Shown here: positions 12,375 through 48,568 of the stretch, one piece after another
Layout of the letters: each line of letters opens with the position of its first letter
Position numbering within the stretch: position 1 is the stretch's first letter
Source of the DNA: Cupriavidus taiwanensis
Lineage (GTDB): Bacteria; Pseudomonadota; Gammaproteobacteria; Burkholderiales; Burkholderiaceae
Direction of reading: 5' to 3'
NCBI RefSeq assembly: GCF_900250075.1
Contig: NZ_LT977071.1
Span: 2,623,901 to 2,687,900, forward strand
DNA: 64,000 nt
Translations under genes and position numbers: made by a program
The notes under the pieces: model-generated
The model's database searches: none
Told to the model about the DNA's origin: nothing
What the model saw: the letters and a program-made list of their open reading frames with translations, nothing else

Positions 12375-12535
12375 AGGCAGCTTCTCGACAGGGCAACTAC
12401 CAGATCATAACCACTTCCATGTGTTGGATTGGTGAAACCGTTGCGAATGTGCCAAGGCCGTCAACCTGCCACGGCGCTGTCAGGTTCCCGCGCCGGCGCC
12501 GACATACCGGCATCGCCATCCTTCCGGAGCCCGCA

Positions 12536-13009
12536 ATGACCGCCAGGCCCGCCATCCTCGTGCTGACCCACCTCGCCATGCTGGCGGCCGGCTTTGCCGC
12601 GGGCATCTATGTTCTGCCGATCCTGACGGCACAGCCGGGTGCCAGTGCCGGGCAGGTGCAGGCGGTGTCGCAACAGGCGCGCTATGCCGGCACCTTCCGC
12701 AAGGACCTGGCCGGCAGCGACGCGCTGCACTGGGCCAGCGGGCGGCTCCATGTCTCGGCCAATGCGCTCGCCTTCGAAGGCAGCGTGGCACCGGGACCGG
12801 ACTACCGGATCTACCTGGCGCCGGCCTTTGTCGACAACAAGGAAGCCTTCCTGCGGATCAAGGACCAGTCGCTGCAGGTGGGTGAACTGAAGACCTTCGG
12901 CAATTTCACCGTGGATTTGCCGGCCGGGGTGGATCCGTCCCGGTATGCGGCGGTGGTGATCTGGTGCGAGCGGTTCGGGCAGTTTATCGGGGCGGCTGGG
13001 TATAGATAG
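12536..13009 (+). CDS. DM13-domain exported protein
   Basis: 157-residue protein with an N-terminal hydrophobic segment (about 5-30, LVLTHLAMLAAGFAAGIYVLPIL) acting as signal or anchor. The rest is a DM13 domain: FRKDLAGSDALHWASGRLHV, then APGPDYRIYLAP, and near the end VVIWCERFGQFIGAAGY with the conserved Cys. DM13 domains have been proposed to take part in extracytoplasmic redox reactions. The ATG at 12536 follows CCGGAG. It stands alone. Confidence 0.85.
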   Translation: MTARPAILVLTHLAMLAAGFAAGIYVLPILTAQPGASAGQVQAVSQQARYAGTFRKDLAGSDALHWASGRLHVSANALAFEGSVAPGPDYRIYLAPAFVDNKEAFLRIKDQSLQVGELKTFGNFTVDLPAGVDPSRYAAVVIWCERFGQFIGAAGYR

Positions 13010-13074
13010 GAACCGGGCGCGGGAGTGCGGCTGGCGATGGCGTTGCCGGCGCAGCAGGGCAGCGGCGCAAGCGG

Positions 13075-13103
13075 AAAAAGGGGCCGGTCAAGGCAACCGG
13101 CCC
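13075..13103 (-). terminator. Rho-independent terminator of the porin gene
   Basis: On the minus strand a stem GGGCCGGT/ACCGGCCC (13096-13103 with 13081-13088, 7-base loop) is followed by a T5 tract (A5 at 13075-13079 on the plus strand). It lies about 100 bases after the porin stop. Confidence 0.75.
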
Positions 13104-13199
13104 AACGAACCCCGCAAGACCAGCCGCAGGTGTCGATATGAGCGTCAAGCACCCGCCCGTGCAGGCATGGGCGCCTGCCGGGCGGGCATCAGCTAATAA

Positions 13200-14267
13200 T
13201 CAGAAGCGATGACGCAGGCCGATGGTGGCGCCCGTCTGGTTCTCGCCGGCAACCACGGTGCCCACGCCGTTCAGGCCCAGCGCCGAGCCCGACTTGTTTT
13301 TCGCGTAGCCCACGTTCAGATACACGTCGGTGCGCTTGGACAGCGAGTAGTCCGCCGACAGCACGAACATCCACGGATCCGCGTCGCTGTTGCGGGTGTC
13401 GTTGTAGTACGCCGCGCCGGTCAGCAGGAACGCCGGCGTGAAGCGGTACTGCGCGCCGGCCCAGTAGACGTTGCTGCGGGTCTCGGCCGCGGTGGCGCTG
13501 GAGACGCCGTCGTCGCGCAGCCAGCGGTAGCCCGCGAACACCTTGGCCCCGCCGAAGGCATAGGCCGCACCCACCGCCGCGCGCTTGGCGGCGCGGTCCT
13601 GCAGCGCCACCGTGCCGCCGTGGAACTGGTCGTAGGCCGCGCCGACCGAGAGGCCGCCCGCCGCATACGTCAGGCCGCCGCCGAAGTTGCGCCCGACCTT
13701 GGTCTCGCCCGGGATTTCGTTGTTGTCGCGGCCGAAGCTGTAGAAGCCGGTGGCGGTCAGGCCGCCGAACTTGCCGGTGTACTTGACGGCGTTGTCGGCG
13801 CGGCCGTTGAAGGCCGAGTCGACGCTGTTGAGCGAGTAGCGCGGGCCCACGCCCATCGGGTCGAAGGCGCCGAACAGGTCGTACAGCGCGTTCTGCTGGC
13901 GGCCCAGCGTGACCGCGCCCCAGCCGCCCTGCAGGCCGACGTAGGCCTGGCGGCCGAACAGGCGGTTGCCCTGGCCCGAGGTGCCGGTGTCGACATCGAA
14001 GCCGCTTTCCAGCACGAAGATGCCCTTCAGGCCGCCGCCCAGGTCTTCGGTGCCGCGCAGGCCCCAGCGCGAGCCCGACAGGTTGCCCGAGTTCAGGCGC
14101 ACGGCCGTGCCTTCGGCGCCGCCGCTGCCCGGCACGTTGCTGATCACTTCGACGCCGGCATCGACGATGCCGTAGAGCGTCACGTTGGACGTGGACTGGG
14201 CCGACGCCACCCCGGATGCGGCCGACGCGGCCGCTGCTGCCGTCATTGCAAGGAGAGCTTTCTTCAC
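13200..14267 (-). CDS. Gram-negative porin (OmpC-like)
   Basis: Outer-membrane trimeric porin of 355 residues. The signal peptide is about 24 residues (KKALLAMTAAAAASAASGVASA), and the mature part opens QSTSNVTLYGIVDAGVEV, the usual start for beta-proteobacterial porins. The constriction-loop region and the terminal Phe in GLRHRF needed for barrel assembly are present. The start is GTG at 14267, behind AGAGAAA; the open frame upstream does not look like protein. A terminator lies downstream on the same strand. Confidence 0.93.
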   Translation of the reverse strand: MKKALLAMTAAAAASAASGVASAQSTSNVTLYGIVDAGVEVISNVPGSGGAEGTAVRLNSGNLSGSRWGLRGTEDLGGGLKGIFVLESGFDVDTGTSGQGNRLFGRQAYVGLQGGWGAVTLGRQQNALYDLFGAFDPMGVGPRYSLNSVDSAFNGRADNAVKYTGKFGGLTATGFYSFGRDNNEIPGETKVGRNFGGGLTYAAGGLSVGAAYDQFHGGTVALQDRAAKRAAVGAAYAFGGAKVFAGYRWLRDDGVSSATAAETRSNVYWAGAQYRFTPAFLLTGAAYYNDTRNSDADPWMFVLSADYSLSKRTDVYLNVGYAKNKSGSALGLNGVGTVVAGENQTGATIGLRHRF

Positions 14268-33048: not shown

Positions 33049-34323
33049 CTACGCCACGCGGCGCCGCTGCGCCGGAGCGTGCGTTTCAGCCGAGAGCGTG
33101 CCCGCCCACGCATTGCGGACGATGGCGGCATAGCGCGCGGGCACGTCGGGCACGGGGAAGGCCTTGGCCAGGCGCGTGACAGCCAGTGCATCGCGCACCA
33201 GCGCATCGATGTCGCCCTGCCCGATACCGCAAGCCTGGAGCGTTGTCGGCAAGCCAACGGCTGCCACCAGTTCGCGCGCCACGCCGGGCACGCGTGCCAC
33301 GGCGATATCCGGATCGCAGTCGGAGACGTCCAGCAGGCGGGCAATCGCCAGCAATTCCTCGCGGCGCACGTCGGCCAGCGCATCGAGCACGTACGGCAGC
33401 ATCACCGCGTTGGTGGTGCCATGCGACAGGTGCGTCAGGCCCGCGACCGCGTAGGCAATGCCATGCACGGCGTTGAGTCCCGCGCTGCCATATGACAGCG
33501 CCGCATAGACGCTGGCGTAGCTCATGCCGATGCGCGCTTCGCGGTCAGTGCCGTCCTGGTAGCTGCGCAACAGGTACCGGCCGCACAGGCGGATCGATTC
33601 GTGCGCGAACAGCATCGTCAGCGCATTGCGGCCGCTGTAGCCGGGGTCCGCTTCGCCGCCGCGGTCAAAGCTGGCGGAATCGAGCGTCAGGCAGGACTCG
33701 ATCGCATGGGTCAGCGCGTCGATGCCGGCATCCGCGGTAACCCGCGGCGGACAGGTGTAGGTGAATTCGGGGTCGACCAGCGCCACGGCCGGGCGCAGCC
33801 GGTTATCCATGACCGCCACCTTGGTCGCGTTGTCCGGATCGACCAGGATCGCTCCGGGTGTCGCCTCCGAGCCCGTGCCGGCCGTGGTCGGCATCGCGAC
33901 CAGCGGCAGGATCGGAGTGCCGGCGTCGATGCTGCCAAGGAAGGCGCGCACGGGCTTGCCGCCAGGCAGGGTCAGGCACAGCGCCTTGGCCAGGTCGATA
34001 TTGCTGCCGCCGCCCAGTGCGATGACATGGTCGAGCGGTGCGCCGCCGAGCCGCTCCCGCACGGCCGCCGTGGCCGCATCGCACAGCGTGGTGGTGGGAT
34101 CGGGCATGCCGCCGTCATAGACCAGCAGCTCGACGCCGTGCGCGCGGGCGCCGGCGACGAGTTCATCCACCCACGGTGTGCCACCGGTGAAGAACGTGTC
34201 CGTCACCAGCAGGCCACGGCGATAGCCGAGCCGGCGCAACAGCGCAGGCAGCTGCGTACGGCATCCAGCGCCCATGACCAGCCGCGCCGGCGCGCAGAAA
34301 TATACGAGGTCTTCCACTCTCAT
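33049..34323 (-). CDS. Iron-containing (class III) alcohol dehydrogenase
   Basis: 424-residue NAD(P)-dependent dehydrogenase. The cofactor loop is ALGGGSNIDLAKAL near 105, with MPTTAGTGSEATPGAIL near 145. Metal ligands fall in DAGIDALTHAIES (Asp, His) and in the downstream His motifs GLNAVHGIAYAVAGLTHLSHGTTNAVMLP. The ATG overlaps an otherwise empty leader after the hydrolase gene. In the family, both alcohol dehydrogenases and maleylacetate reductases occur; the substrate is open. Confidence 0.9.
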   Translation of the reverse strand: MRVEDLVYFCAPARLVMGAGCRTQLPALLRRLGYRRGLLVTDTFFTGGTPWVDELVAGARAHGVELLVYDGGMPDPTTTLCDAATAAVRERLGGAPLDHVIALGGGSNIDLAKALCLTLPGGKPVRAFLGSIDAGTPILPLVAMPTTAGTGSEATPGAILVDPDNATKVAVMDNRLRPAVALVDPEFTYTCPPRVTADAGIDALTHAIESCLTLDSASFDRGGEADPGYSGRNALTMLFAHESIRLCGRYLLRSYQDGTDREARIGMSYASVYAALSYGSAGLNAVHGIAYAVAGLTHLSHGTTNAVMLPYVLDALADVRREELLAIARLLDVSDCDPDIAVARVPGVARELVAAVGLPTTLQACGIGQGDIDALVRDALAVTRLAKAFPVPDVPARYAAIVRNAWAGTLSAETHAPAQRRRVA

Positions 34324-35955: not shown

Positions 35956-36282
35956 TCAAAAGAGCTGGCGCCGGCCATCATAGTCGAGGACGATCCGGTT
36001 CATCGCGCCCAGCAGCTCCCGTTCCCCGCCGCTAAGCGACTGCTCGATCGAGCGCATATAGCCCAGCAACTGCGCCTGGGCGGCATTGGCCACATCGGTG
36101 GTAATCCCCTCGTCGTCATGCAGGATCACATACGACCGCGCAAACCCGTAGACCAGGAAGTACGCGGCGGCGTGGTCCGGATCGGCGGACATCAGGGCCA
36201 GCGATTGCTCCTTGACCTTGAGGAATGCGTCCGTCCCCGGCACGCTGCTGGCAAACTGCTCTGTAACCGTCTTGAAGTCCAT
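35956..36282 (-). CDS. Hypothetical protein (108 aa)
   Basis: Unrecognised soluble protein, mostly helical by composition (DAFLKVKEQSLALMSADPDHAAAYFLVYGFARSYVILHDDEG and then AAQAQLLGYMRSIEQSL). CTGAGAGA precedes the ATG. It shares its orientation with the XRE regulator, 32 bases downstream of that gene's stop, so the two may be co-transcribed. Confidence 0.7.
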   Translation of the reverse strand: MDFKTVTEQFASSVPGTDAFLKVKEQSLALMSADPDHAAAYFLVYGFARSYVILHDDEGITTDVANAAQAQLLGYMRSIEQSLSGGERELLGAMNRIVLDYDGRRQLF

Positions 36283-36314: not shown

Positions 36315-37196
36315 TCAGACCTGCTGCAGCATGCGCCGCAACAGTCCGGCACCATCGGGGCCCTTGTAGGCGCGTTGCCAGAGTGCCTCGACCATGTTTG
36401 TGTAAAGCGATACCGCTTCCGGCGCGGCCGTCACCGAGGCGATGCCCGCCGAAATATTGGGAAATTCGCCGAAGCGGAACGGACTGATGGCCACATAAGA
36501 GCCGGTCGGCCGCTCGAAGATCTGGAACGTGGCATTCGGCATGCTCTCGTTAACGATGCCGATCCGCATTCCCGCATGCTGCTGTTCCAACAACACCGCG
36601 ATGCGCTCCACTTCCGCGCGCGCCGCCAGCGATCGCTCCATGCGCGTCGCGGGGGGCAGGTCCATCCGGCCGACCAGCCCGAAATGGACAAAGCGTTCAA
36701 GCTCGCGCAGCCCGATCAGGCTCAGGATCGGCGCCGGGTGCGAGGCATACGATTCCTTGCGCTCGCGCAGCAAGGCCATGACGGCCTGGATGCGGCCGTC
36801 GTCGTTGTCGCCGCTCTCCCTGAGCATCTGCTCGAGATAGCGGTCATAGTCCGGCGAGGTCAGCAGGAACGAAATCGGCTCGAAGTGCGCAAGGATCCGG
36901 GTGGCGCCCTGCTCGAGCTGGCGCATGCGTTCGATGTAGGCGATGGCTGACGGGTAGTATTCCGTGCCCGCGCCGAGCAGCGATTCCAGCGAGGTATCGA
37001 GGATGCCGGCCAGGCGCTCGAGCGTCTCGATCTTGACGATCTCGCCCTTCTCCATGCGATAGACCGCTGCGCGGGAAATCCCAAGCACCTCGGCAATCTG
37101 CTCGGCCCGCAGTTGCGCGCCCAGCCGGTAGGCACGCAGCCGCGCGCCCAGTGCCTCGAAATCGATCCCGCCGGTACCGGTGGCGCGACGTTCCAT
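36315..37196 (-). CDS. XRE-family regulator, divergent from the orotate genes
   Basis: 293-residue regulator with an N-terminal Cro/C1-type helix-turn-helix (about 15-70: LRAYRLGAQLRAEQIAEVLGISRAAVYRMEKGEI). A long C-terminal domain of unknown type follows, probably a ligand sensor (for example GMRIGIVNESMPNATFQIF and RPTGSYVAISPFRFGEFP). The ATG at 37196 follows GAGACAG. It is transcribed away from the MFS-pyrKD-hydrolase-pyrC-aspA-pyrE-malic enzyme run, so it is the likely local regulator. Orotate or dihydroorotate as effector is inference. Confidence 0.88.
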   Translation of the reverse strand: MERRATGTGGIDFEALGARLRAYRLGAQLRAEQIAEVLGISRAAVYRMEKGEIVKIETLERLAGILDTSLESLLGAGTEYYPSAIAYIERMRQLEQGATRILAHFEPISFLLTSPDYDRYLEQMLRESGDNDDGRIQAVMALLRERKESYASHPAPILSLIGLRELERFVHFGLVGRMDLPPATRMERSLAARAEVERIAVLLEQQHAGMRIGIVNESMPNATFQIFERPTGSYVAISPFRFGEFPNISAGIASVTAAPEAVSLYTNMVEALWQRAYKGPDGAGLLRRMLQQV

Positions 37197-37401
37197 GTCT
37201 GTCTCAATAATTAGATTGATGTCACTATAGCATGGTGCCGGCGCGGCGCACATCCCGTCGCCACAGCGGGTAGGGATAAACCCGGAAACACCAGAATAAC
37301 GCTTGCCATGCCGCGGAAGGCCGCATAGTCTAAAAAAATAGATTTTCATTGATGCCACGCAGTTCCTTTGGGCCATAGGTCACGAGGGAAGCGATGCAGT
37401 G

Positions 37402-37429
37402 ATTTTTAAGACCTATTCAGTCTAAAAAT
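37402..37429 (+). promoter_or_regulatory. Imperfect inverted repeat before the orotate operon
   Basis: ATTTTTAAGAC (37402-37412) and GTCTAAAAAT (37420-37429) form an inverted repeat with one extra base in the left arm, ending ten bases before the MFS start codon. GTCTAAAAA also stands at 37328-37336. These AT-rich half sites stand out in GC-rich DNA and are candidates for XRE regulator binding. Confidence 0.5.
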
Positions 37430-37438
37430 GGAGACAGC

Positions 37439-38677
37439 ATGACAAGCCAGCCCCTCACCCAACCGGTCGCCGCGACGGAGGCGCCGACATCGCCGTACGC
37501 GTGGAAAGCCCTGGCCGGCTCCGCCATCGGCTACGCCATGGACGGGTTCGACCTTCTGATCCTGGGCTTCATGCTGCCGGCGATCAGTGCCTCGCTTCTG
37601 CTGACCACCGGCCAGTCCGGTGCGCTGGTCACGTGGACGCTGGTCGGGGCCGTGGCCGGCGGAATCATTTTTGGTGCGTTGAGCGACCGCTATGGCCGCG
37701 TCAGGGTGCTGACGTGGACCATCGTCTTGTTTGCGGTATTTACGGGCATGTGTGCCCTGGCCCAGGGCTTCTGGGACCTGCTGGTCTACCGGACCATTGC
37801 CGGCATCGGGCTCGGCGGCGAGTTCGGCATCGGCATGGCGCTGGCCGCCGAGGCGTGGCCGGCGAGCAAGCGCGCGCGCGTGTCGTCCTATGTCGCGCTG
37901 GGCTGGCAATCGGGTGTGCTGATGGCGGCGTTGCTGACGCCGTTGCTGCTGCCGCTGGTGGGTTGGCGCGGCATGTTCGTGATAGGCGTGCTGCCGGCGC
38001 TGGTGGCATGGTTCATCCGCAACCGGCTGCATGAGCCCGAAGTGTTCGTGCGCAGCGCACGCACGGAGAAGAAGCCCAATGCATTCAGGCTGCTGGTCGC
38101 GGATGGCAAGACCGCTCGCACCAGCCTGGGCATCGTGATCCTGTGCTCGGTCCAGAACTTCGGCTACTACGGCATCATGATCTGGCTGCCCACCTACCTG
38201 TCCAAGGCGCTGGGCTTTTCGCTGACCAAGTCGGCCTTGTGGACCTCGGTGACCATCGTCGGCATGATGATCGGCGTCTATGTCTTTGGCCACCTGGCCG
38301 ACCGCATCGGCCGCAAGCCGACCTTCCTGATCTTCCAGGCTGGCGCGGTGGCAATGGTGCTGGCCTATGCCAGGCTGTCCGATCCCATGACCATGCTGTG
38401 GGCCGGCGCCGTCATGGGCATGTTCGTCAACGGCATGATCGGCGGCTATGGCGCGCTGATTTCCGAAGCGTACCCGACCGCGGCACGGGCCACCGCACAG
38501 AACGTGCTGTTCAACATCGGGCGCGCCGTCGGCGGGCTGGGGCCCATCGTAGTCGGCGCCATCGCCGCGGCGTATTCGTTCCAGCTGGCGATCGCACTGC
38601 TCGCGAGCATCTACGTGATCGACATGATCGCCACCGTCTTCCTGATCCCCGAACTGAAGGGCGTGGAACTGGAATAA
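37439..38677 (+). CDS. MFS transporter, probable orotate/organic acid uptake
   Basis: Twelve-helix AAHS-type symporter of 412 residues. The start of helix 1 GSAIGYAMDGFDLLILGFML carries the family's acidic DGFD motif. The helix 2-3 loop is ALSDRYGRVRV, and the second-half loop HLADRIGRKPTF. GAGACAG precedes the ATG. As first gene of the orotate cluster it probably imports orotate or a close relative by proton symport; the substrate is inferred from context. Confidence 0.88.
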   Translation: MTSQPLTQPVAATEAPTSPYAWKALAGSAIGYAMDGFDLLILGFMLPAISASLLLTTGQSGALVTWTLVGAVAGGIIFGALSDRYGRVRVLTWTIVLFAVFTGMCALAQGFWDLLVYRTIAGIGLGGEFGIGMALAAEAWPASKRARVSSYVALGWQSGVLMAALLTPLLLPLVGWRGMFVIGVLPALVAWFIRNRLHEPEVFVRSARTEKKPNAFRLLVADGKTARTSLGIVILCSVQNFGYYGIMIWLPTYLSKALGFSLTKSALWTSVTIVGMMIGVYVFGHLADRIGRKPTFLIFQAGAVAMVLAYARLSDPMTMLWAGAVMGMFVNGMIGGYGALISEAYPTAARATAQNVLFNIGRAVGGLGPIVVGAIAAAYSFQLAIALLASIYVIDMIATVFLIPELKGVELE

Positions 38678-38748
38678 CGCCGGAACCACGCACCAGCCAT
38701 TGCTCCGCTGCGCCGCCCGGCGCAGCGCCATCCTCAGGAGTTACCAAC

Positions 38749-39597
38749 ATGTGTGCCACCGTGTGTAGCGCGGATTCCGCGGCTACCGTAGCCTCCTATC
38801 GCTGTCGAATCGTTGAACATGCCTGGGTCAACCAGCGCTACAAGTACATCCGGCTCGAATCGGAGGCCCCGCTCGCGGCGATGACCCGGCCGGGACAGTT
38901 CTATCAGCTCAGCTGTCCCGCCACCGCCGAAGCCCAGCCCTTCCTGCTTCGGCCGATGAGCGTCTATGGCGCCGGCCCGGAAAGCGGGCGCATCGAGTTC
39001 CTCTACAACGTCACCGGCATTGGCACGCGCGCGATGGCCACGCTCCCGGTCGACGGCCATCTGGACATCGTCGGCCCGCTCGGCAACACGTTCACGTTCG
39101 AGCCCTCGTTCCGGCGCATTCTGGTGGTCGCGCGCGGCGTCGGGCTGGCGACCATGGCGCCGCTGATCCGCCAGGCTGCCGACGCCGGCACCGCCATCAC
39201 CGCGATCATGTCGGCACGCAGCCCGGCCGACCTGATGGAAAAAGAGTTCCTGCGCGGCGCCAGCGCCGAGGTGCACGCCGTGTTCGATGCTGACGGCACC
39301 TCCTCGGTCGAGACGGTCGAGGCCCTGGCCCGCCGCCTGATCGACACGCAACGTCCCGATGCGGTCTACACCTGCGGCTCGCACCGCCTGCTGATGCTGC
39401 TCCAGCGGGTACTGGAGGATCACCCTGGCGTCCAGGGCGAGGTCGCGATGGAGCAGCGCATGGCCTGCGGCATGGGCGTGTGCCTGTCGTGCGTGCGGCT
39501 GTTCGATTGCGATGGCGACAAGCAGTTCCTGCGCGTCTGCCGCGAAGGTCCCGTTTTCAAGATTCGCGAAGTGGTGGGGGAGGTGGAATTTGGCTAA
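38749..39597 (+). CDS. pyrK: Dihydroorotate dehydrogenase electron-transfer subunit (PyrK)
   Basis: 282-residue FAD and 2Fe-2S protein that connects NAD(H) with the FMN subunit of class 1B dihydroorotate dehydrogenase. The FAD site is RPMS (68-71). The NAD domain has ILVVARGVGLATM near 125-136. The cluster ligands are Cys 240, 245, 248 and 264 in the pattern CGMGVCLSC plus CREGPVF. The ATG at 38749 follows CAGGAG. It overlaps the pyrD gene by 8 bases. In this context the complex should run in the direction orotate plus NADH to dihydroorotate. Confidence 0.93.
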   Translation: MCATVCSADSAATVASYRCRIVEHAWVNQRYKYIRLESEAPLAAMTRPGQFYQLSCPATAEAQPFLLRPMSVYGAGPESGRIEFLYNVTGIGTRAMATLPVDGHLDIVGPLGNTFTFEPSFRRILVVARGVGLATMAPLIRQAADAGTAITAIMSARSPADLMEKEFLRGASAEVHAVFDADGTSSVETVEALARRLIDTQRPDAVYTCGSHRLLMLLQRVLEDHPGVQGEVAMEQRMACGMGVCLSCVRLFDCDGDKQFLRVCREGPVFKIREVVGEVEFG

Positions 39598-40540
39598 TCT
39601 GACTGTACGGGTTGGCGACCTGACGTTGCGCAACCCCGTGATGCCCGCATCCGGCTGCTTCGCCATCGAGTACCGCGAGGCGATGGATCTCAACCGGCTG
39701 GGCGCGCTGGTCATCAAGAGCGTCTCGCCCAGGTCGCGCGCGGGCAACCCCACCCCGCGCGTGGCGGAAACCTTCAGCGGGATGCTGAATTCGATCGGCA
39801 TTCCCAGCAAGGGACTCGACTACTACCGCCAGGAAGTCCTGCCCGCCTATACGCAATACGACACGCCCGTCGTCGTGTCGATTTCCGCCGATACGGCCGA
39901 AGAGTTCGGCGCCGCCTGCGAAGAGATGTCGTTGCCGGAAGTCGCCGTGATCGAGGCCAATATCTCATGCCCCAACCTGGAAGCCGACGGCATGGCCTTT
40001 GCCATGTTGCCCGAGACCACCTACAAGGCCGTCTCCGCGATTCGCCGCCGCACCCGGCATCCGTTCTGGGTCAAGCTGACGCCTAACGCGGGCAATATCG
40101 CCGCGGTCGCGCGCGCGGCCGAGGAAGCCGGTGCCGATGCGATCGTGATGGGCAACACCGTGCTCGGCATGGCGATCGATATCCGCACGCGCAAGCCCAA
40201 GCTTGGCAATGTCATGGGCGGCCTGTCCGGGCCGGCGATCAAGCCGATTGCCCTGCGGCTGGTGCACCAGTGCTATCGCGCCGTGCGCATCCCCATCATC
40301 GGCTGCGGCGGCATCCAGAGCGCCGAGGACGCGATCGAGTTCATGCTGGCGGGGGCGTCGGCGATCCAGGTCGGCACGGCCTCGTTCCGGGATCCCGGCA
40401 TCATGCAGAAGATCATCGACGGGCTCGATGCGTATTGCGAGCAAGCCGGCATCGCCTCGATCCGCGACCTGACCGGGCAGGTGATCCTCGACCGCCAACT
40501 CAGCGACCGCTGGCTGCGCTTCGCGCAGCAGTCGGGCTGA
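39590..40540 (+). CDS. pyrD: Dihydroorotate dehydrogenase catalytic subunit, class 1B
   Basis: 316-residue FMN barrel. NISCPN (124-129) contains Cys 127, the catalytic base of class 1 enzymes, whereas the membrane-bound class 2 enzymes of proteobacterial biosynthesis use Ser. VIKSVSPRSRAGNPTPR binds FMN, and CGGIQSAEDAIEFMLAGASAIQVGTA forms the phosphate site. The start is TTG at 39590 behind GGAGGTG, overlapping pyrK. With PyrK it forms the NAD-linked heterotetramer; a class 1B enzyme is the degradative one in Clostridium oroticum. Confidence 0.93.
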   Translation: MANLTVRVGDLTLRNPVMPASGCFAIEYREAMDLNRLGALVIKSVSPRSRAGNPTPRVAETFSGMLNSIGIPSKGLDYYRQEVLPAYTQYDTPVVVSISADTAEEFGAACEEMSLPEVAVIEANISCPNLEADGMAFAMLPETTYKAVSAIRRRTRHPFWVKLTPNAGNIAAVARAAEEAGADAIVMGNTVLGMAIDIRTRKPKLGNVMGGLSGPAIKPIALRLVHQCYRAVRIPIIGCGGIQSAEDAIEFMLAGASAIQVGTASFRDPGIMQKIIDGLDAYCEQAGIASIRDLTGQVILDRQLSDRWLRFAQQSG

Positions 40541-40550
40541 GCAACCGGAC

Positions 40551-41828
40551 ATGTCCATGGATATCCTGGAACTCAAGCCGCTGGCGGAACAATTGTTCGC
40601 CGACATCGGCGCGCTGACGTTCGACGGCGTCGGCATTACCCGCGACAGCTATGGCGCCGGCGAATCGGCCGCGGCCGACTACCTGCGGCGCTTTGCCGGG
40701 CAGCACGGGCTGGACGTACGGAGCGATCGCGCGGCCAACCTCGTGTTCGCCCTGCCCGATGAAGACCCTCGTGCACCGGCCGCGTGGGTCGGCTCGCATG
40801 TCGACTCTGTGCCGCAAGGCGGCAACTTCGACGGCCTCGCGGGGATCGTCGCCGGCCTGCTGTGCCTGATCGCACGCAAGGCGCAAGGCGGGTCCGGCGC
40901 CGCACCGCTGCGCGTGATCGCCTTCCGGGGCGAGGAAAGCGCGTGGTTCGGCAAGGCCTATATGGGATCGGGCGCCGCGCTGGGCAAGCTTGGCGCGGAC
41001 GACCTGGCGCTGAAGCACCGCAGTTCGGGCCAGACACTTGCCGATTGCATGGCCGCGGTCGGTGCCGACGTCGAGGCCATTGCGGCACAACAGCCCTTGT
41101 TTGACCGTGCGGCAGCCGCGGCATACCTGGAACTGCATATTGAACAGGGCCCGGTAATGGTGGCCCGCAAGCTGCCGCTGGCGGTGGTGCCCGGAATTCG
41201 CGGGAACATCCGGCACAACCGCATTACCTGCCTCGGCGAACCCGGCCATTCCGGCGCGGTGCCGCGCTGGCTGCGCAAGGATGCGATGTTCGCCGTGGCC
41301 GAGCTGATCACGCGGCTCGACGAACACTGGAAGGTGCTGCTCGAGCGCGGCATGGACCTGGTAGTGACCACGGGTGTGGTGTCCACCGACGCCGCGGAAC
41401 ATTCCATTTCACGGATTCCGGGCAAGGTCGAATTCAGCTTCGAGGTTCGCAGCAAGAGCGTGGACACGCTGGAAGGCTTCTACCAGTTGCTGCGCACGGA
41501 GTGCAAGGCCATCAGCCGCGACCGCAGCGTGCATTTCGAATTCGACCGCCGTGTCGAATCGGCCCCGGCGACGATGGACCCGGCGCTGTCTGGCCTGCTG
41601 CGCGACGCGTGCGCCGGCGCAGGGCTGCCGACTGAAATGGTGCCGAGCGGCGCCGGACACGACGCCGCGCTGTTTGCCAATGCCGGCATCCCCACCGCCA
41701 TGCTCTTTGTGCGCAACGAGCACGGCTCGCACAACCCCGACGAAGCGATGGACCTGGACGATTTCATGCTCGGCACCCAAGTCATGTATCGGGCACTCGA
41801 AAGCATCCGCGCCGGGAGGCAGCCATGA
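40551..41828 (+). CDS. M20 N-carbamoyl-amino-acid hydrolase (probable N-carbamoyl-L-aspartate hydrolase)
   Basis: 425-residue dinuclear metal amidohydrolase of the hydantoinase/carbamoylase (M20C) group. Metal ligands are His 83 (GSHVDSV), Asp 94 (GNFDG), Glu 128-129 (RGEES), His 196 (LELHIEQGP) and the C-terminal His in HGSHNPDE. Family members cleave N-carbamoyl amino acids, beta-ureidopropionate or allantoate to an amine, CO2 and ammonia. Between dihydroorotate dehydrogenase and dihydroorotase genes the substrate is most likely N-carbamoyl-L-aspartate. The stop overlaps pyrC by 4 bases. Confidence 0.88.
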   Translation: MSMDILELKPLAEQLFADIGALTFDGVGITRDSYGAGESAAADYLRRFAGQHGLDVRSDRAANLVFALPDEDPRAPAAWVGSHVDSVPQGGNFDGLAGIVAGLLCLIARKAQGGSGAAPLRVIAFRGEESAWFGKAYMGSGAALGKLGADDLALKHRSSGQTLADCMAAVGADVEAIAAQQPLFDRAAAAAYLELHIEQGPVMVARKLPLAVVPGIRGNIRHNRITCLGEPGHSGAVPRWLRKDAMFAVAELITRLDEHWKVLLERGMDLVVTTGVVSTDAAEHSISRIPGKVEFSFEVRSKSVDTLEGFYQLLRTECKAISRDRSVHFEFDRRVESAPATMDPALSGLLRDACAGAGLPTEMVPSGAGHDAALFANAGIPTAMLFVRNEHGSHNPDEAMDLDDFMLGTQVMYRALESIRAGRQP

Positions 41829-42868
41829 CTGTGCAGACCCTGACCGTCCGCCGTCCGGACGACTGGCACCTGCACCTGCGCGACGGCGACCTGCTGCGCG
41901 CGGTGCTGCCGGCGTCCGCCGGCCAGTTCGGCCGCGCCGTGGTGATGCCCAACCTGAAACCGCCGGTTACCACGGCGCAGGCGGCCATCGCCTATCGTGA
42001 ACGTATCGTTGGCGCATTGCCGCCGGGATCCGCCTTCACCCCGCTGATGACCTGCTACCTGTGCGACACCACTGCTGCGGCGGAGATCCGCGACGGGTTC
42101 GACGCCGGTGCCTTTGCCGCCGCAAAGCTGTATCCCGCCGGCGCCACCACCCATTCCGAGTACGGCGTGACGTCGATCGACCGTATTGCGGGCGTGCTGG
42201 CGGTCATGCAGGACATCGGCATGCCGCTGCTGATCCATGGCGAAAGCACCGATCCGGCGGTCGATGTCTTCGATCGGGAAGCAGCGTTCCTGCAGGCCAC
42301 GCTGCGGCCCCTGCTGGCCCGCTATCCGCGCCTGAAGGTGGTGCTGGAACACATTACCACCGCCGAGGCGGCCGACTTCGTCCTGCGCGACGCCAGCGGC
42401 AGGCTGGCCGCCACCATCACGCCGCAGCACCTGATGTTCAACCGCAACGCCATGTTCGCGGGCGGCATCCGGCCGCACTACTACTGCCTGCCGGTATTGA
42501 AGCGCGAGCGACACCGGCTGGCGCTGCGCCGTGCCGCGACCTCGGGCTCGCCGGCATTCTTTCTCGGCACCGACTCGGCGCCGCACGATATCGAAGTCAA
42601 GCAATCCGCATGCGGTTGCGCGGGGATCTTCAGCGCGCCGGTCGCCTTGCAGGCCTACCTGACCGTGTTCGAGGAGGAGCATGCCCTGGATCGCTTCGAG
42701 GCCTTCGCCAGCGACAACGGCGCGCGCTTCTACGGCATGCCGCCGAACCAGGACACGATCACGTTCCACCGCAGCCCCATGCACGTGCCGCAGCACGTCG
42801 AATTGCCGGACGGCCGGCGCATCCGCCAGTTCCTCGCCGGCGAGACGCTGCCATGGATGCTGGCCTAG
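41825..42868 (+). CDS. pyrC: Dihydroorotase (class II, PyrC)
   Basis: 347-residue zinc amidohydrolase, the length of E. coli PyrC. WHLHLRDG (14-21) holds the first two zinc His. Lys 101 in AAKLYPAGATTHSEYGV is the carboxylated bridging lysine. HGE and VLEHITT supply further ligands, and FLGTDSAPHD the catalytic Asp. It interconverts dihydroorotate and N-carbamoyl-aspartate; in this operon the hydrolytic direction is expected. Confidence 0.93.
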   Translation: MTVQTLTVRRPDDWHLHLRDGDLLRAVLPASAGQFGRAVVMPNLKPPVTTAQAAIAYRERIVGALPPGSAFTPLMTCYLCDTTAAAEIRDGFDAGAFAAAKLYPAGATTHSEYGVTSIDRIAGVLAVMQDIGMPLLIHGESTDPAVDVFDREAAFLQATLRPLLARYPRLKVVLEHITTAEAADFVLRDASGRLAATITPQHLMFNRNAMFAGGIRPHYYCLPVLKRERHRLALRRAATSGSPAFFLGTDSAPHDIEVKQSACGCAGIFSAPVALQAYLTVFEEEHALDRFEAFASDNGARFYGMPPNQDTITFHRSPMHVPQHVELPDGRRIRQFLAGETLPWMLA

Positions 42869-42899
42869 CCCACGCCAACCCTAATCGGATCCCATCACC

Positions 42900-44321
42900 A
42901 TGACCAATACCTATCGCACCGAAGCCGACCTGCTTGGCGAACGGCAGGTGCCGGCCGACGCCTACTACGGCGTCCACACGCTGCGGGCCTGGGAGAACTT
43001 CCAGATCAGCGGCACGCCCATCTCGTCGTGGCCGGAGCTGATCATCGCGCTCGCCTCGGTCAAGCAGGCCGCGGCCGAGGCCAATGCCGAACTTGGCCTG
43101 CTGCCCGCAAACCTGCGCGACGCCATCCTGGCCGCCTGCCACGACGTGCGCGAGGGCATGCTGCACGACCAGTTCATTGTCGACACGATCCAGGGCGGAG
43201 CCGGCACGTCGACGAACATGAATGCCAACGAGGTCATCTGCAACCGGGCGCTCGAGCACATGGGGCACGGCAGGGGCGAATACCGTTTCCTGCATCCCAA
43301 CGAGCACGTCAACATGGCGCAGAGCACCAATGACGTTTATCCGACGGCATTGCGCATTGCCACGTACTTTGCCATCGAGCACCTGCTCGAAGCGATGGAA
43401 GTCCTGCGCGCGGCGTTCGAACGCAAGTCGAACGAATTCTCCGGCCTGCTCAAGCTCGGCCGCACCCAGTTGCAGGATGCGGTGCCGATGACGCTGGGGC
43501 AGGAGTTCTCGACCTACGCGGTCATGCTCGAAGAAGACATGGCGCGCCTGCGCGAAACCGCCCTGCTGATCCGCGAGATCAACCTGGGCGCCACCGCGAT
43601 CGGCACCGGCATCACCGCGCACCCCGACTACGCGCCGAAGGCCTTGGCCGCGCTGCGCCGCATCACCGGCATCGACCTGTGCCTCGCGCCCAACCTGGTG
43701 GAAGCCACGCAGGATTGCGGTGCCTTCGTGCAGATCTCGGGCGTGCTCAAGCGCATCGCCGTCAAGCTGTCCAAGACCTGCAACGACCTGCGGCTGCTGT
43801 CCAGCGGGCCGCGCGCCGGCTTTGGCGAGATCAACCTCCCGCCGATGCAGGCGGGCTCGTCGATCATGCCGGGCAAGGTCAACCCCGTCATTCCGGAGGT
43901 GGTCAACCAGATCGCCTTCGAAGTGTTCGGCAACGACACCACCATCACCTTTGCCGCCGAGGCCGGCCAGTTGCAGCTCAACGCCTTCGAACCGGTGATT
44001 GCCGCCAGCCTGCTCCGCAGTTTCCGCCACCTGACCAACGGCTGCCTGACGCTGGCGCACAAGTGCGTCGACGGCATTACCGCCAACCCCGAACGCCTGC
44101 GCGAGACCATCGAGCGCTCGATCGCGCTGGTCACGGCGCTCAATCCCGTGATCGGCTACAAGAACGCGACCTCGGTCGCCGCCGAGGCCCATGCCAGGGG
44201 CACCACCATCCGCGAAGTGGTGCTGGCACGCGGCCTGATGTCCGCCGAGGCGCTCGACGAGGCCTTGCGCCCCGAAACCCTGATCCGGCCGCGTGCCGAC
44301 AAGCTCGGCGGCAAGCCATGA
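42900..44321 (+). CDS. aspA: Aspartate ammonia-lyase
   Basis: 473-residue member of the fumarase/aspartase superfamily, converting L-aspartate to fumarate and ammonia. The signature GSSIMPGKVNPVIPEV carries the catalytic Ser loop. The N-terminus TEADLLGERQVPADAYYGVHTLRA and AQSTNDVYPTALR follow the aspartase pattern rather than class II fumarase. It lies 31 bases after pyrC, and its stop overlaps the next gene's ATG. It should funnel aspartate from carbamoyl-aspartate into the TCA cycle. Confidence 0.92.
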   Translation: MTNTYRTEADLLGERQVPADAYYGVHTLRAWENFQISGTPISSWPELIIALASVKQAAAEANAELGLLPANLRDAILAACHDVREGMLHDQFIVDTIQGGAGTSTNMNANEVICNRALEHMGHGRGEYRFLHPNEHVNMAQSTNDVYPTALRIATYFAIEHLLEAMEVLRAAFERKSNEFSGLLKLGRTQLQDAVPMTLGQEFSTYAVMLEEDMARLRETALLIREINLGATAIGTGITAHPDYAPKALAALRRITGIDLCLAPNLVEATQDCGAFVQISGVLKRIAVKLSKTCNDLRLLSSGPRAGFGEINLPPMQAGSSIMPGKVNPVIPEVVNQIAFEVFGNDTTITFAAEAGQLQLNAFEPVIAASLLRSFRHLTNGCLTLAHKCVDGITANPERLRETIERSIALVTALNPVIGYKNATSVAAEAHARGTTIREVVLARGLMSAEALDEALRPETLIRPRADKLGGKP

Positions 44322-45013
44322 ACGAGAGCGTCCTCATGCCCCAACATCGAACCATGCTGACGCTGCAGGGGTCCGTCGGCCGCGCGCTGGTCGAGGCCGG
44401 CTGCGTCCGCTTTCGCGGCGACGAACCTTTTCGCCTGCCCTCGGGGTGGGCCAGCCCGGTCTATATCGATTGCCGCCGGCTGATCTCCTACCCGGCACTG
44501 CGCCGCGCGCTGGTGCAGCGCGGGGTGCAGCTGCTGCGCGAGCGCGGCCGCCTGGACGGCATCGACGTGGTCGCCGGCGCGGAATCCGGCGGCATCGCGT
44601 ACGCCGCATGGGTGGCCGAGCTGCTCGACGTGCCGATGGTCTACGTGCGCAAGGAAGCGCGCGGCATCGGGCCCAGCGCGCAGATCGTCGGCGAGATCCG
44701 AACGGGCGAGCGCGTGCTGCTGGTCGACGACATGATGGCAGCGGGACGGTCCAAGGCCGTCTTCTGCGCCGCACTGTCTGAGGCCGGCGCCGTGGTGCGG
44801 GACCTGCTGGTCCTGTTCGACTACGGCACCTTCCCGACGCAAGCGGTCCTGTCGCGCTGGCAGCCAGCCGTCCATGCGCTGGCGACATGGCGCGAGGTCC
44901 TCGACGCACTAAGCGGGTGCGGGGACGTCGCCGACACCGACCTGGCCGGATTGCGGGCCTTCCTGGCCGATCCGCCAGGCTGGTCCGGCAGGCACGGCGG
45001 CATCGCCGCGTAG
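44318..45013 (+). CDS. pyrE: Orotate phosphoribosyltransferase-like protein
   Basis: 231-residue type I phosphoribosyltransferase that would make OMP from orotate and PRPP. FRLPSGWASPVYIDCRRLISYP matches the OPRT N-terminal region. VAGAESGGIAYAAWVAELLDVPMVYVRKEARGIG gives the catalytic loop, and VLLVDDMMAAGRSK is the PRPP-binding motif (usually DDVxTTGGS, so slightly divergent). The ATG overlaps the aspA stop. In a degradative operon it may salvage part of the imported orotate into UMP synthesis. Confidence 0.87.
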   Translation: MNESVLMPQHRTMLTLQGSVGRALVEAGCVRFRGDEPFRLPSGWASPVYIDCRRLISYPALRRALVQRGVQLLRERGRLDGIDVVAGAESGGIAYAAWVAELLDVPMVYVRKEARGIGPSAQIVGEIRTGERVLLVDDMMAAGRSKAVFCAALSEAGAVVRDLLVLFDYGTFPTQAVLSRWQPAVHALATWREVLDALSGCGDVADTDLAGLRAFLADPPGWSGRHGGIAA

Positions 45014-45098
45014 CCCTCAACAACGGATTGTGTGCCGGCCGCTCGCCCGTCATCACGGGCGGTGGCCCCCTTTTGCCCAAAATTTCCCCGAACCCACC

Positions 45099-46403
45099 AT
45101 GGACGACGCCTTCAAGCAAAGCGCCCTCGCCTACCACTGCATCCCAACCCCCGGAAAGATCTCGGTCACGCCGACCAAACCCCTCGGCAACCAGCACGAC
45201 CTGGCGCTGGCCTACTCGCCTGGCGTGGCCGCCGCCTGCGAGGCCATCCACGCCGAGCCCCTGGACGCCCGGCACTACACCGCCCGCAACAACCTCGTCG
45301 GCGTGATCACCAACGGCACGGCGGTGCTCGGACTGGGCAACCTCGGGCCGCTCGCCGCCAAGCCCGTCATGGAAGGCAAGGCCTGCCTGTTCAAGCTGTT
45401 CGCGGATATCGATGTGTTCGACCTGGAGCTGGCGGAGACGGACCCTGGCAAGCTCGTCGAAGCCATCGCGATGCTGGAGCCGACCTTCGGCGGCATCAAC
45501 CTCGAAGACATCAAGGCCCCGGAGTGCTTCCACGTCGAACAGGCGCTGCGCCAGCGGATGCAGATCCCGGTGTTCCACGACGACCAGCATGGCACCGCCA
45601 TCATCGCCGCCGCGGCGATCCTGAATGGCCTCAAGGTGGCCGGCAAGTCGATCGACCGCGTCAGGCTGGTGTGCTCCGGGGCCGGCGCCGCCGCGCTGGC
45701 GTGCCTGGACCTGCTGGTCAGCCTTGGGCTGCCGCGCGGGCACATCGCCGTGCTGGATTCGCGCGGCGTCATCCTGACGGACCGGCAAGCGCTAGATCCC
45801 AGCAAGCGCCGCTTCGCGCAGGAACCTGCCATCTACGCAGCGCGAGCCCTGGGCGAGGCGCTGGAAGATGCCGACGTGTTCCTGGGCTGCTCCAGTGCGG
45901 GGGTGCTCAAGCCTGCCATGCTGCGCGGCATGCGCGAGAAGCCGCTGATCCTGGCCCTGGCCAACCCCGAACCTGAAATCCGCCCGGAAGCGGCGCGCCA
46001 GGCGCGACCGGACTGCCTGATCGCAACGGGCCGCTCCGACTACCCCAACCAGGTCAACAACGTGCTGTGCTTCCCGTTCATCTTCCGGGGCGCGCTCGAT
46101 GTCGGTGCGACCACCATCACCGAATCGATGAAGCTGGCTTGCGTACACGCGCTGGCTGCGTTGGCCGAAGAGGCGCCCGGGCCCGAAGTCGCCGCCGCCT
46201 ACCCCGGCAAGTCCCTGGTATTCGGCCCCGACTACCTGATCCCTACGCCGTTCGATCCGCGCCTGATCACCCGCCTGGCACCGGCAGTGGCCCAGGCGGC
46301 CGCCGACGCCGGCGTGGCGCGACGCCCGATCCAGGACATGGCGGCCTATCGCGCGCACCTGGCGGCGCGCCGCCGGCAAGTTTTTCCACACCACACCAAC
46401 TGA
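45099..46403 (+). CDS. NAD(P)-dependent malic enzyme, short form
   Basis: 434-residue enzyme that decarboxylates malate to pyruvate with NAD(P)H formation. [15 protein letters not shown], the catalytic Lys region [20 protein letters not shown] and [20 protein letters not shown], the latter with metal ligands, are present; [13 protein letters not shown] is the cofactor loop. The phosphotransacetylase-like C-terminal domain common in proteobacterial MaeB is absent. It ends the orotate run: fumarate from aspartase can reach pyruvate through fumarase and this enzyme, returning reducing power. Confidence 0.9.
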
Positions 46404-46422
46404 AAACAAGCTGGAGGAGACC

Positions 46423-47490
46423 ATGCAACGAAAACACTCGGCCCTGGCAGCGGCCGCCATGGCCGCGAGCCTTGGACACCCGGCCCTGGCCCAATCCGGC
46501 GTCACCCTGTATGGCCAGGTCGACGCCTTCGTCGGCAGCACCCGCGCCTCGGGCGGCGAGCGCACGGCCATCGTCGGCGCGGGCGGCATGCAGACTTCCT
46601 ACTGGGGCATGCGCGGCACCGAAGATCTCGGTAACGGGCTCAAGGCGATATTCGACCTGAACGGGTTCTACCGCGTCGACACGGGGCGCTTCGGCCGTTC
46701 CGACAGCGACGGCTTCCTGACCCGCAGCGCCTATGCCGGGCTGCAATCATCGAAGTACGGCACGGTTCGGCTCGGGCGCAATACCACGCCATATTTCCTG
46801 TCGACGATCCTGTTCAATCCGCTGGTCGATTCCTACAACTTTGGACCGTCGATCTTCCATACCTATAGGACGGCGACCGATGGACGCGTGTTCGATCCCG
46901 GGATCATCGGTGACTCCGGATGGTCGAACTCGGTCGTGTACTCCTCGCCAACCGCCGGCGGCCTGACGGTGAACCTGATCTACGCGTTTGGCGAGCAGCC
47001 GGGCAGCAACGGCCAGAACAAATGGGGTGGCAACCTAACCTGGTTCAACGGCGCCTTCGCCGCGACGGCCGCCTTCCAGCAGGTCAGGTTCAACACCGTC
47101 CCCGGCGACGTGACAGCGCCCGCGGCCCTCGCCGGCTTCGACAAGCAGACGGCGGCGCAGCTGGGCGTGACCTATGACTTCGGTGTCGCCAAGCTGTTCG
47201 GGCAGGCACAGTACATCCGCACCGCCATCAACGGCGCCCAGGGCGATATCCGGCATGCGAACGGCCAGGTCGGCGCGTCGATTGCGGTCGGGGCGGGCAG
47301 TGTGCTGGCCTCCTACGCCTATGGCAACACACGCAACGATGTGGCGGGAATGGGCCGGCATACGGCCGGCATCGCCTATGACTACAACTTGTCAAAGCGG
47401 ACCGATCTGTATGCCGCGTATTTCTATGACCGCGTAACAGGGCGGCCGCATGCCGAGACCATAGGGGCCGGCATGCGGCATCGGTTCTAG
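46423..47490 (+). CDS. Gram-negative porin (OmpC-like), downstream of the orotate genes
   Basis: 355-residue outer-membrane porin. A signal peptide of about 24 residues ends at ALAQ; the mature part starts SGVTLYGQVDAFVGS and ends in AGMRHRF with the terminal Phe. GGAGGAGACC precedes the ATG, 19 bases after the malic enzyme stop, so it is probably co-transcribed and may admit the operon's substrate through the outer membrane. Confidence 0.92.
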   Translation: MQRKHSALAAAAMAASLGHPALAQSGVTLYGQVDAFVGSTRASGGERTAIVGAGGMQTSYWGMRGTEDLGNGLKAIFDLNGFYRVDTGRFGRSDSDGFLTRSAYAGLQSSKYGTVRLGRNTTPYFLSTILFNPLVDSYNFGPSIFHTYRTATDGRVFDPGIIGDSGWSNSVVYSSPTAGGLTVNLIYAFGEQPGSNGQNKWGGNLTWFNGAFAATAAFQQVRFNTVPGDVTAPAALAGFDKQTAAQLGVTYDFGVAKLFGQAQYIRTAINGAQGDIRHANGQVGASIAVGAGSVLASYAYGNTRNDVAGMGRHTAGIAYDYNLSKRTDLYAAYFYDRVTGRPHAETIGAGMRHRF

Positions 47491-47539: not shown

Positions 47540-48568
47540 TCAATCGAGCGTGATGGCTTCGCGCTGGATCACCGCCGTCCAGTTGCCTTCCTCCCTTGCC
47601 ACGCGCTTCGCGAAATTGGCCGGATCTAGCATCACGACATCGCCTTGCTGGCCCAGCGCTGTCTTGGCCTTGCTGTCCTCGAGCAGCCCCTGCGCGACCG
47701 CATGGAGCTTCTGGACGATCTGCGGCGGCGTGCCGGCCGGTACCAGCATGCCGATCCAGAAGGTCACGTCGAAGGGCGAGATGCCAAGCTCCTCCAGCGT
47801 TGGCACATCCGGCAACTGCGCCATGCGCTTCGGTGCGCTGACGGCGAGGGGCTTGAGCTTGCCGGCCTTGATCTGAGGCAGCGCCGTCCAGGTATCGAAG
47901 GCCGTATCCAGCTCACCGCTGATCACGGCCAGTTGCGCCTGTGCCGCGGACTTGTACGGAATGTGCGTGGTCTTGATCCTGGTGCGGTTGTTCAGCATGG
48001 CAAAGCTGAGATGCGCGATATTGCCCGGCCCGGCCGAGCCATAGCTGACCTTGCCGGGATGCTGCGTCGCGTAGCGCACCAGCTCCGGCACCGAACCGAC
48101 CCCGTTCTTCTGCGACCAGTCAGGGTTGGTGACGAGGATGAAAGGCGCCTCGAGGACCAGGGTGACCGGCGTGAAGTCCTTCGGCGAATAGGTGCCCTTC
48201 TTGTAGATCTGCGGGTTGATGGTGATGCTGCTGGAGTTGGTCACCAGCAAGGTATAGCCGTCGGGCGCAGCCTTGGCGACCTCGCCCACGCCGATCAGTC
48301 CGTTCGCGCCCGCCTTGTTTTCCACTACCACAGGCTGGCCGAGGGACTTGGTCAGCCGCTCCGAAAGAACCCGGGCCACGGTATCCGTGAACGACCCCGC
48401 CGGAAAGGGAACGATCATCCGGATCGGCTTGTTGGGCCAGCCCGCATTCTGCGCCGCGGCCGGCGCGGCCATCGTCGTGGCCAGGATGCCAAGCGCGGCC
48501 GCCGCCACGCTGAGTTTGCCGGCCTTTGCGCCTGCCTGGCAGCGCTGGATCCATGTCGGTTTGTTCAT
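47540..48568 (-). CDS. Bug/TctC-family periplasmic solute receptor
   Basis: 342-residue receptor of the tripartite tricarboxylate transporter type. The signal peptide ends near APAAAQ; WPNKPIRMIVPFPAGSFTDTVARVLSE and VVVENKAGANGLIGVGEVAKAAPDGYTLL are the family's anchor sequences. It is the last gene of the minus-strand carboxylase/CoA-transferase operon and probably captures its carboxylate substrate. No TctA/TctB membrane partner is encoded nearby. Confidence 0.92.
   Translation of the reverse strand: MNKPTWIQRCQAGAKAGKLSVAAAALGILATTMAAPAAAQNAGWPNKPIRMIVPFPAGSFTDTVARVLSERLTKSLGQPVVVENKAGANGLIGVGEVAKAAPDGYTLLVTNSSSITINPQIYKKGTYSPKDFTPVTLVLEAPFILVTNPDWSQKNGVGSVPELVRYATQHPGKVSYGSAGPGNIAHLSFAMLNNRTRIKTTHIPYKSAAQAQLAVISGELDTAFDTWTALPQIKAGKLKPLAVSAPKRMAQLPDVPTLEELGISPFDVTFWIGMLVPAGTPPQIVQKLHAVAQGLLEDSKAKTALGQQGDVVMLDPANFAKRVAREEGNWTAVIQREAITLD

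Follow-up and report, generated by a model that had tools for sequence, protein, structure and literature searches.

A putative operon for orotate breakdown in Cupriavidus taiwanensis and its recurrence in other Proteobacteria

Results

We analyzed a 64,000-nucleotide stretch of Cupriavidus taiwanensis DNA (NZ_LT977071.1, positions 2,623,901 to 2,687,900; hereafter, the window), in which an earlier reading made from the sequence alone had proposed that a run of genes at 36315..47490 forms a complete operon for the degradation of orotate. RNA building blocks are made by way of orotate, which also occurs in milk and whose breakdown is old biochemistry. We conclude that the locus is very probably (roughly 0.88, from gene content and comparison with other genomes) an inducible catabolic operon for orotate. 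Two findings in particular lend support to the sequence-only reading: the genome holds separate housekeeping genes for pyrimidine synthesis, and sister clusters in other bacteria encode binding proteins of the type of 4NN3, a solved structure bound to orotic acid.

Gene content and order

Using the open reading frame list, translations and family scans, we found all of the genes named in the earlier reading, in the order and on the strands it gave: a major facilitator superfamily (MFS) carrier, PyrK, class 1B PyrD, an M20 enzyme, PyrC, AspA, an orotate phosphoribosyltransferase (OPRT)-like protein, malic enzyme and a porin, with a divergent XRE-type regulator. The features are as follows.

35956..36282, minus strand: 108-amino-acid protein of no known family, proposed partner of the M20 enzyme; 32 nucleotides (nt) downstream of the regulator
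36315..37196 (open reading frame opening at 37376), minus strand: XRE-type regulator; HTH_31/HTH_3, with a phospholipase-D/TrmB-like C-terminal domain by fold matches
37439..38677, plus strand: MFS carrier, proposed orotate importer; TIGR00895, 344.7 bits (cut-off, 418.55), Pfam MFS_1 over cut-off
38749..39597, plus strand: PyrK, FAD/2Fe-2S electron-transfer subunit; Pfam PF10418 (DHODB Fe-S domain) over cut-off
39590..40540, plus strand: PyrD class 1B, proposed NADH-linked orotate reductase; PRK07259, 375 bits (cut-off, 269), TIGR01037 over cut-off
40551..41828, plus strand: M20 hydantoinase/carbamoylase-family amidohydrolase, proposed N-carbamoyl-L-aspartate hydrolase; TIGR01879, 265.8 bits (cut-off, 204)
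41825..42868, plus strand: PyrC, type II dihydroorotase; TIGR00856, 438 bits (cut-off, 293)
42900..44321, plus strand: AspA, aspartate ammonia-lyase; TIGR00839, 688.5 bits, barely above the cut-off of 681
44318..45013, plus strand: divergent OPRT-like protein (PyrE-like); NF001729 and TIGR00336 both below cut-off
45099..46403, plus strand: malic enzyme, short form; Pfam malic and Malic_M over cut-off
46423..47490, plus strand: porin; Porin_4 over cut-off

TIGR00895, which models the AAHS (aromatic-acid:H+ symporter) MFS transporters, was the top match of the carrier even though its cut-off was not reached. The top match of PyrC in the PDB was the dihydroorotase 1xge (E 2.4e-131), and AspA scored 488 bits against the fumarase model, under its cut-off of 665. 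The malic enzyme scored 674 bits against PRK12861, below cut-off, covering the first 421 of 764 model positions. The most plausible start of pyrD is a TTG at 39590, within the 3' end of pyrK and with GGAGG ahead of it; the PyrD computations took 39596 as the first base. Starting at the MFS gene and ending at the porin gene, the successive spacings are +71, -8, +10, -4, +31, -4, +85 and +19 nt, so the single transcript suggested earlier from overlaps and short gaps (none outside -8 to +85 nt) is plausible. A promoter scan returned one site where 1.3 were expected, and the promoter and terminator scan was uninformative. No pyrB, carA/B or pyrF was found among the ten window genes scanned against family models. 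Genes of other kinds lie on either side, at 33049-34323 and 47540-48568; by eye, we take them to be iron-type alcohol dehydrogenase-like and tripartite tricarboxylate binding-protein-like.

Separate housekeeping copies

The earlier reading hinged on the window genes not being the cell's only pyrC and pyrD, and separate copies do exist. The genome comprises 6.77 Mb in 14 contigs; the window is part of contig C2, and the separate pyrimidine genes are on contig C1. These are a second pyrC (C1:765019; 59% identical to the window PyrC; TIGR00856, 480 bits), a class 2, quinone-type pyrD (C1:1657344; TIGR01036, 415 bits) and a housekeeping pyrE (C1:478871; TIGR00336, 183 bits). The window pyrC, pyrD and pyrE are therefore not the sole genomic copies, as they would be if this were the cell's one locus for de novo pyrimidine synthesis. 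Elsewhere in the genome, the nearest other copy of AspA is 44% identical, and two relatives of the malic enzyme, both in longer open frames, are 67% identical to it. Counting the operon member, five genes of the M20 carbamoylase family in the genome score over cut-off, and the operon member scores lowest of the five.

Recurrence in other genomes

A PyrD scan of 84,980 species genomes gave 283 relatives. The best 80 of these and 12 plasmid loci, hand-picked from PyrK, PyrD or M20 matches, made up a nonrandom sample of 92 loci, all scored by one rule (presence within 9 kb of pyrD). PyrK, PyrD and M20 occurred together in 59 of the 92, a recurrence that exceeds chance, and the neighborhood that the sequence-only reading proposed to look for elsewhere is thus found as a PyrK-PyrD-M20 block. 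The parts of these 59 M20-bearing clusters include PyrK (59), an XRE regulator (52), an MFS carrier (49), the 108-amino-acid protein (34, with wider probes), a PyrE-like protein (29), a porin (26), a 4NN3-type TRAP system (5) and malic enzyme (4).

The 33 loci without M20 had PyrK and PyrD; scored in the same way, they had no further part. Thirty of them hold PyrD relatives at 45-50% identity from other phyla, and these are presumed to be biosynthetic. In a PyrD tree of 92 rows, the cluster type was split from these 30 rows with a branch support of 100/99, in a tree that encloses a class 2 branch of great length, is not securely rooted and came with a warning about long branches. Three Paraburkholderia loci (L053, L054 and L055) have PyrK and PyrD, the latter at 55-57% identity, without M20; in L054 (9117-13905), the one whose neighbors were scanned, an asparaginase and an arylmalonate-decarboxylase-like gene come next. 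These PyrK-PyrD pairs perhaps belong to another pathway.

The presence of the cluster is patchy. PyrK matched at E 1e-60 or better in 16 of 60 Cupriavidus genomes, fragments and 46% matches included, and full-length matches of 82% or more were found in 13 Cupriavidus genomes, counting the window's own. Phylum-wide, the window's own genome was the only one of 299 with a match at E 1e-50 or better, in a search whose initial pass sent at most eight candidates per genome to scoring.

If orotate is the substrate, it could serve as a nitrogen source, or be a toxic overflow product that is removed, and not be a carbon source. We consider this rather unlikely. It would fit the finding that the 9-kb scoring detected neither AspA nor malic enzyme around the Pandoraea, Klebsiella or alphaproteobacterial clusters; in the window, however, the genes for AspA, malic enzyme and porin follow close behind in the same direction, which favors carbon use, and the MFS and TRAP importers counted above speak against overflow removal.

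The orotate link through TRAP binding proteins

Five loci encode a TRAP system in place of the MFS carrier. Four alphaproteobacterial plasmid clusters have the order TRAP-PyrK-PyrD-M20-OPRT-small protein, and in a betaproteobacterial locus whose PyrD is 84% identical to that of the window (L033) the TRAP system stands in the MFS position. For three of these five loci, we compared the binding protein with all solved structures. For two alphaproteobacterial clusters, 4NN3 was by far the closest (438.8 versus 177.7 bits and 426.6 versus 174.4 bits), the Nitratireductor protein sharing 197 of 313 aligned residues with it, and for L033 it scored 388.9 bits versus 162 for the next structure. A passage in PMC11668362 describes 4NN3 as bound to orotic acid, and one in PMC5812351 includes orotic acid in a list of newly discovered TRAP ligands. 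These 4NN3-type proteins in sister clusters therefore tie the enzymes to orotate independently of the names that the enzymes carry.

They also bear on the idea that the locus degrades a related compound, such as dihydroorotate, N-carbamoyl-aspartate or a 5-substituted hydantoin, with PyrK-PyrD working oxidatively on part of it. The models and structures that the M20 enzyme matches are named after several ureido substrates, and the substrate of the window's MFS carrier is not assignable by sequence, both of which would leave room for such a role. Against it stand the orotic acid-type binding proteins of the sister clusters and the presence of PyrK-PyrD beside M20 in 59 of 59 clusters (partly a result of selection, as the loci were found via PyrD or PyrK, and one via M20), since a cell feeding on dihydroorotate or carbamoyl-aspartate would have no need of PyrK-PyrD. 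We regard a related substrate as highly improbable.

The M20 enzyme and its candidate partner

The M20 enzymes of the clusters share a signature, derived from 18 hand-chosen cluster sequences out of 60 (the 59 loci and the window) set against six outsiders that lack it (the other four carbamoylase-family members encoded in the window's genome, plus structures 3n5f and 1z2l). In window numbering, it consists of RGEESAW (R126, G127, S130, W132) around an EE pair that we take to be catalytic, GIRGN (R217, N219), H284 and N389. An additional arginine would fit a substrate with a second carboxylate, as in N-carbamoyl-aspartate.

Searches for the 108-amino-acid protein yielded 31 sequences, the window's included, and the window protein had no match in Pfam or NCBIfam. 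In three rhizobial plasmids (Agrobacterium pAtCFBP7129a and pAt1 and Neorhizobium galegae pHAMBI540a; loci L099, L117 and L118), it is fused in frame to the C terminus of the M20 enzyme, which suggests that it is a physical partner of that enzyme. AlphaFold predicts five helices (mean pLDDT, 94.7), and there was no clear relative among solved structures. An annotated small protein of Roseomonas (L101), tried as a homologue, proved not to be one. In the Agrobacterium plasmid cluster L099, a gene annotated as pyrF (5862-6719) lies between the regulator and pyrK, with no pyrE annotated nearby.

The regulator and an operator-like palindrome

When the regulator is aligned with 22 relatives, the conserved start falls near 37196, not 37376, leaving an intergenic region of ~240 bp. 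The C-terminal half, for which the fold matches were obtained, resembles the sugar-sensing domain of TrmB. Two operator-like sites are present.

37328..37343, no strand: operator-like site 1, GTCTAAAAAAATAGAT; one mismatch to GTCTA-N6-TAGAC
37420..37435, no strand: operator-like site 2, GTCTAAAAATGGAGAC; one mismatch; overlaps the GGAG immediately ahead of the MFS start

By chance, 0.20 such sites would be expected per window, and two were reached in 1 of 100 shuffles. With one mismatch allowed, GTCTA-N6-TAGAC occurred 71 times near clusters and once elsewhere; exact copies numbered 43 near and 1 elsewhere, the top near count among 1,024 half-sites, and 59 control half-sites composed of these letters reached no more than 46 near, the elsewhere count then being 53. 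(The loci counted include numerous close relatives within Pandoraea, and the sites are therefore not independent.) Across the whole genome of the window, the palindrome occurred in 8 places, versus 36 for the pattern read backward. One exact copy lies elsewhere in that genome, at C2:310886-310901, and might mark a further member of the regulon.

The PyrE-like protein

The PyrE-like protein scored 218.9 against the OPRT model NF001729 (cut-off, 245) and 93.3 against TIGR00336 (cut-off, 106.8), while its Nitratireductor homologue passed NF001729 at 395.5. Three residues are missing in four aligned relatives (from Pusillimonas, two Variovorax and an uncultured Bordetella), in a loop that we presume to be catalytic. 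In what is presumably the PRPP (phosphoribosyl pyrophosphate) loop, the window protein has DDMMAAG where the housekeeping PyrE has DDVISAG. The locus of the closest relative, L006, has no PyrE-like gene, with the remaining parts there. For this protein, we consider a sensor or side role to be as likely as catalysis.

Plasmid forms

PyrK matched 105 plasmid records, of which 53 are from Klebsiella, and the 36 Klebsiella matches listed are 60.1% identical. In the annotation of one Klebsiella plasmid, an MFS gene diverges from pyrK-pyrD-M20-pyrC-regulator-small protein, followed by lacY, lacZ and lacI. At least 80% of this joined block of compact cluster and lacIZY is held by 49 of the 53 listed Klebsiella plasmids (L086, CP120874.1 128271-142469, and 52 other records). 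Nine of the 53 listed records name milk or mastitis as their source and 29 a human host. Orotic acid is stated in a passage of PMC8122369 to be more abundant in cow's milk than in sheep's and goat's milk, and the main text of a paper on lac-bearing mastitis plasmids (PMC12724306) has no words beginning with orotate, orotic or pyr. A link between the Klebsiella form and milk is suggestive only.

A Pseudomonas putida plasmid (L103) carries MFS-PyrK-PyrD-M20-dihydroorotase-small protein-malic enzyme-chemoreceptor, an order of duties like that of the window with a different dihydroorotase. The last gene, after the cluster and its malic enzyme gene (12467-14137), encodes a methyl-accepting chemotaxis protein, possibly an orotate chemoreceptor.

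Discussion

Our data are consistent with a model in which orotate would enter through the porin and then the MFS carrier and be reduced by PyrK-PyrD, working in reverse of biosynthesis, to dihydroorotate at the expense of NADH. PyrC would open the ring to give N-carbamoyl-L-aspartate, which the M20 enzyme, aided by the 108-amino-acid protein, would cleave to aspartate, CO2 and NH3. AspA would convert aspartate to fumarate with release of a second NH3, and a fumarase, presumably encoded elsewhere, together with the local malic enzyme would yield pyruvate and NAD(P)H. The XRE regulator would bind the GTCTA-N6-TAGAC operators and respond to orotate or a product, and the PyrE-like protein would either divert some orotate to uridine monophosphate (UMP) or now act as an orotate sensor.

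Several observations weigh against this model. Older work put the potential of the orotate/dihydroorotate couple at about -250 mV. A passage in PMC8097209 gives about -470 mV, at which the reduction of orotate by NADH would run uphill. The window PyrK did not reach the NCBIfam PyrK models (best score, 115.5, versus cut-offs of 219 to 314), and the window's own carrier is an MFS protein, not an orotate-type TRAP system. Both palindrome copies in the window carry a mismatch, and at the stringency used the palindrome was not found in 28 of the 59 clusters, the alphaproteobacterial ones included. Finally, a dihydroorotase lies in only 19 of the 59 clusters (type II PyrC in 18 and type I in 1, by two probes) and AspA in only 20, so those steps would often have to rest on enzymes encoded elsewhere. 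The full enzyme set of the sequence-only reading thus holds for the window and not as a general core: the counts, including those for the PyrE-like protein and malic enzyme, point to a core of importer, PyrK, PyrD, M20 and regulator, with pyrC, aspA and malic enzyme as add-ons.

The same counts bear on whether the locus might instead be a second, conditional site of pyrimidine synthesis or salvage, with PyrC, PyrD and PyrE making or using orotate for UMP, for example at low oxygen. In favor of this, three genes bear biosynthetic names, and a PyrD linked to NAD would not depend on respiration. However, pyrB, carA/B and pyrF are missing from the ten genes scanned, the M20 enzyme, AspA and malic enzyme would drain such a pathway, and the PyrE-like protein falls below the OPRT cut-offs. 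Furthermore, it is M20 that defines the sister clusters, whereas dihydroorotase and PyrE-like genes are near only some of them. We judge synthesis or salvage to be the least probable of the readings considered here, and orotate catabolism remains the one we favor.

The fusion of the 108-amino-acid orphan to M20, the operator-like palindrome and the Klebsiella plasmid form with lacIZY are new relative to the earlier reading, which also knew of no described cluster of this form in Burkholderiales. We found no gene cluster for bacterial orotate breakdown in the open-access literature, most subscription journals being outside that search, and the statement stands to that extent. Tentatively, and with less than even confidence, we propose that the clusters represent a horizontally spread, self-contained proteobacterial system for orotate use with its own XRE/TrmB-like regulator and operator, that the 108-amino-acid protein would be a dedicated subunit of a new N-carbamoyl-L-aspartate amidohydrolase and that the lacIZY-adjacent Klebsiella form would be an adaptation to orotate in ruminant milk. 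If so, genes, a likely switch and an orphan protein family could be assigned to orotate breakdown, many genes named for pyrimidine synthesis or allantoate use would join one pathway, and it would become directly testable whether plasmid-bearing bacteria use the orotate of milk.

The proposed route resembles several known systems and differs from each. The Pyd pathway of reductive uracil degradation yields beta-alanine. There, too, the ring is reduced and opened and a ureido group is cut, as outlined in PMC7332683, but that pathway uses PydA/PreA, and the PreA model scores 146.4 in the window versus a cut-off of 335. The class 1B PyrDb-PyrK of de novo synthesis (e.g., Lactococcus lactis, 1EP1-3) is of the same family (1ep1, 272 bits), whereas the cluster PyrDs sit on their separate branch and have catabolic neighbors. 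ErtE of ergothioneine utilization (NF058540) is an M20 enzyme acting on a carbamoyl amino diacid, as is proposed for the window enzyme, but the latter scores 283 bits against a cut-off of 520. The orotic acid-bound TRAP protein 4NN3 has relatives in sister clusters, while the window has an MFS carrier instead. A parallel in chemistry is the reductive orotate degradation of Clostridium (Zymobacterium) oroticum, worked out in the 1950s, in which an NAD-linked flavin enzyme takes part and orotate is converted to aspartate by way of dihydroorotate and carbamoyl-aspartate. That system is known by its enzymes, from an anaerobic Gram-positive organism, whereas the one described here is a proteobacterial gene cluster that also encodes a carrier, an aspartase and a new small protein and has operator-like sites.

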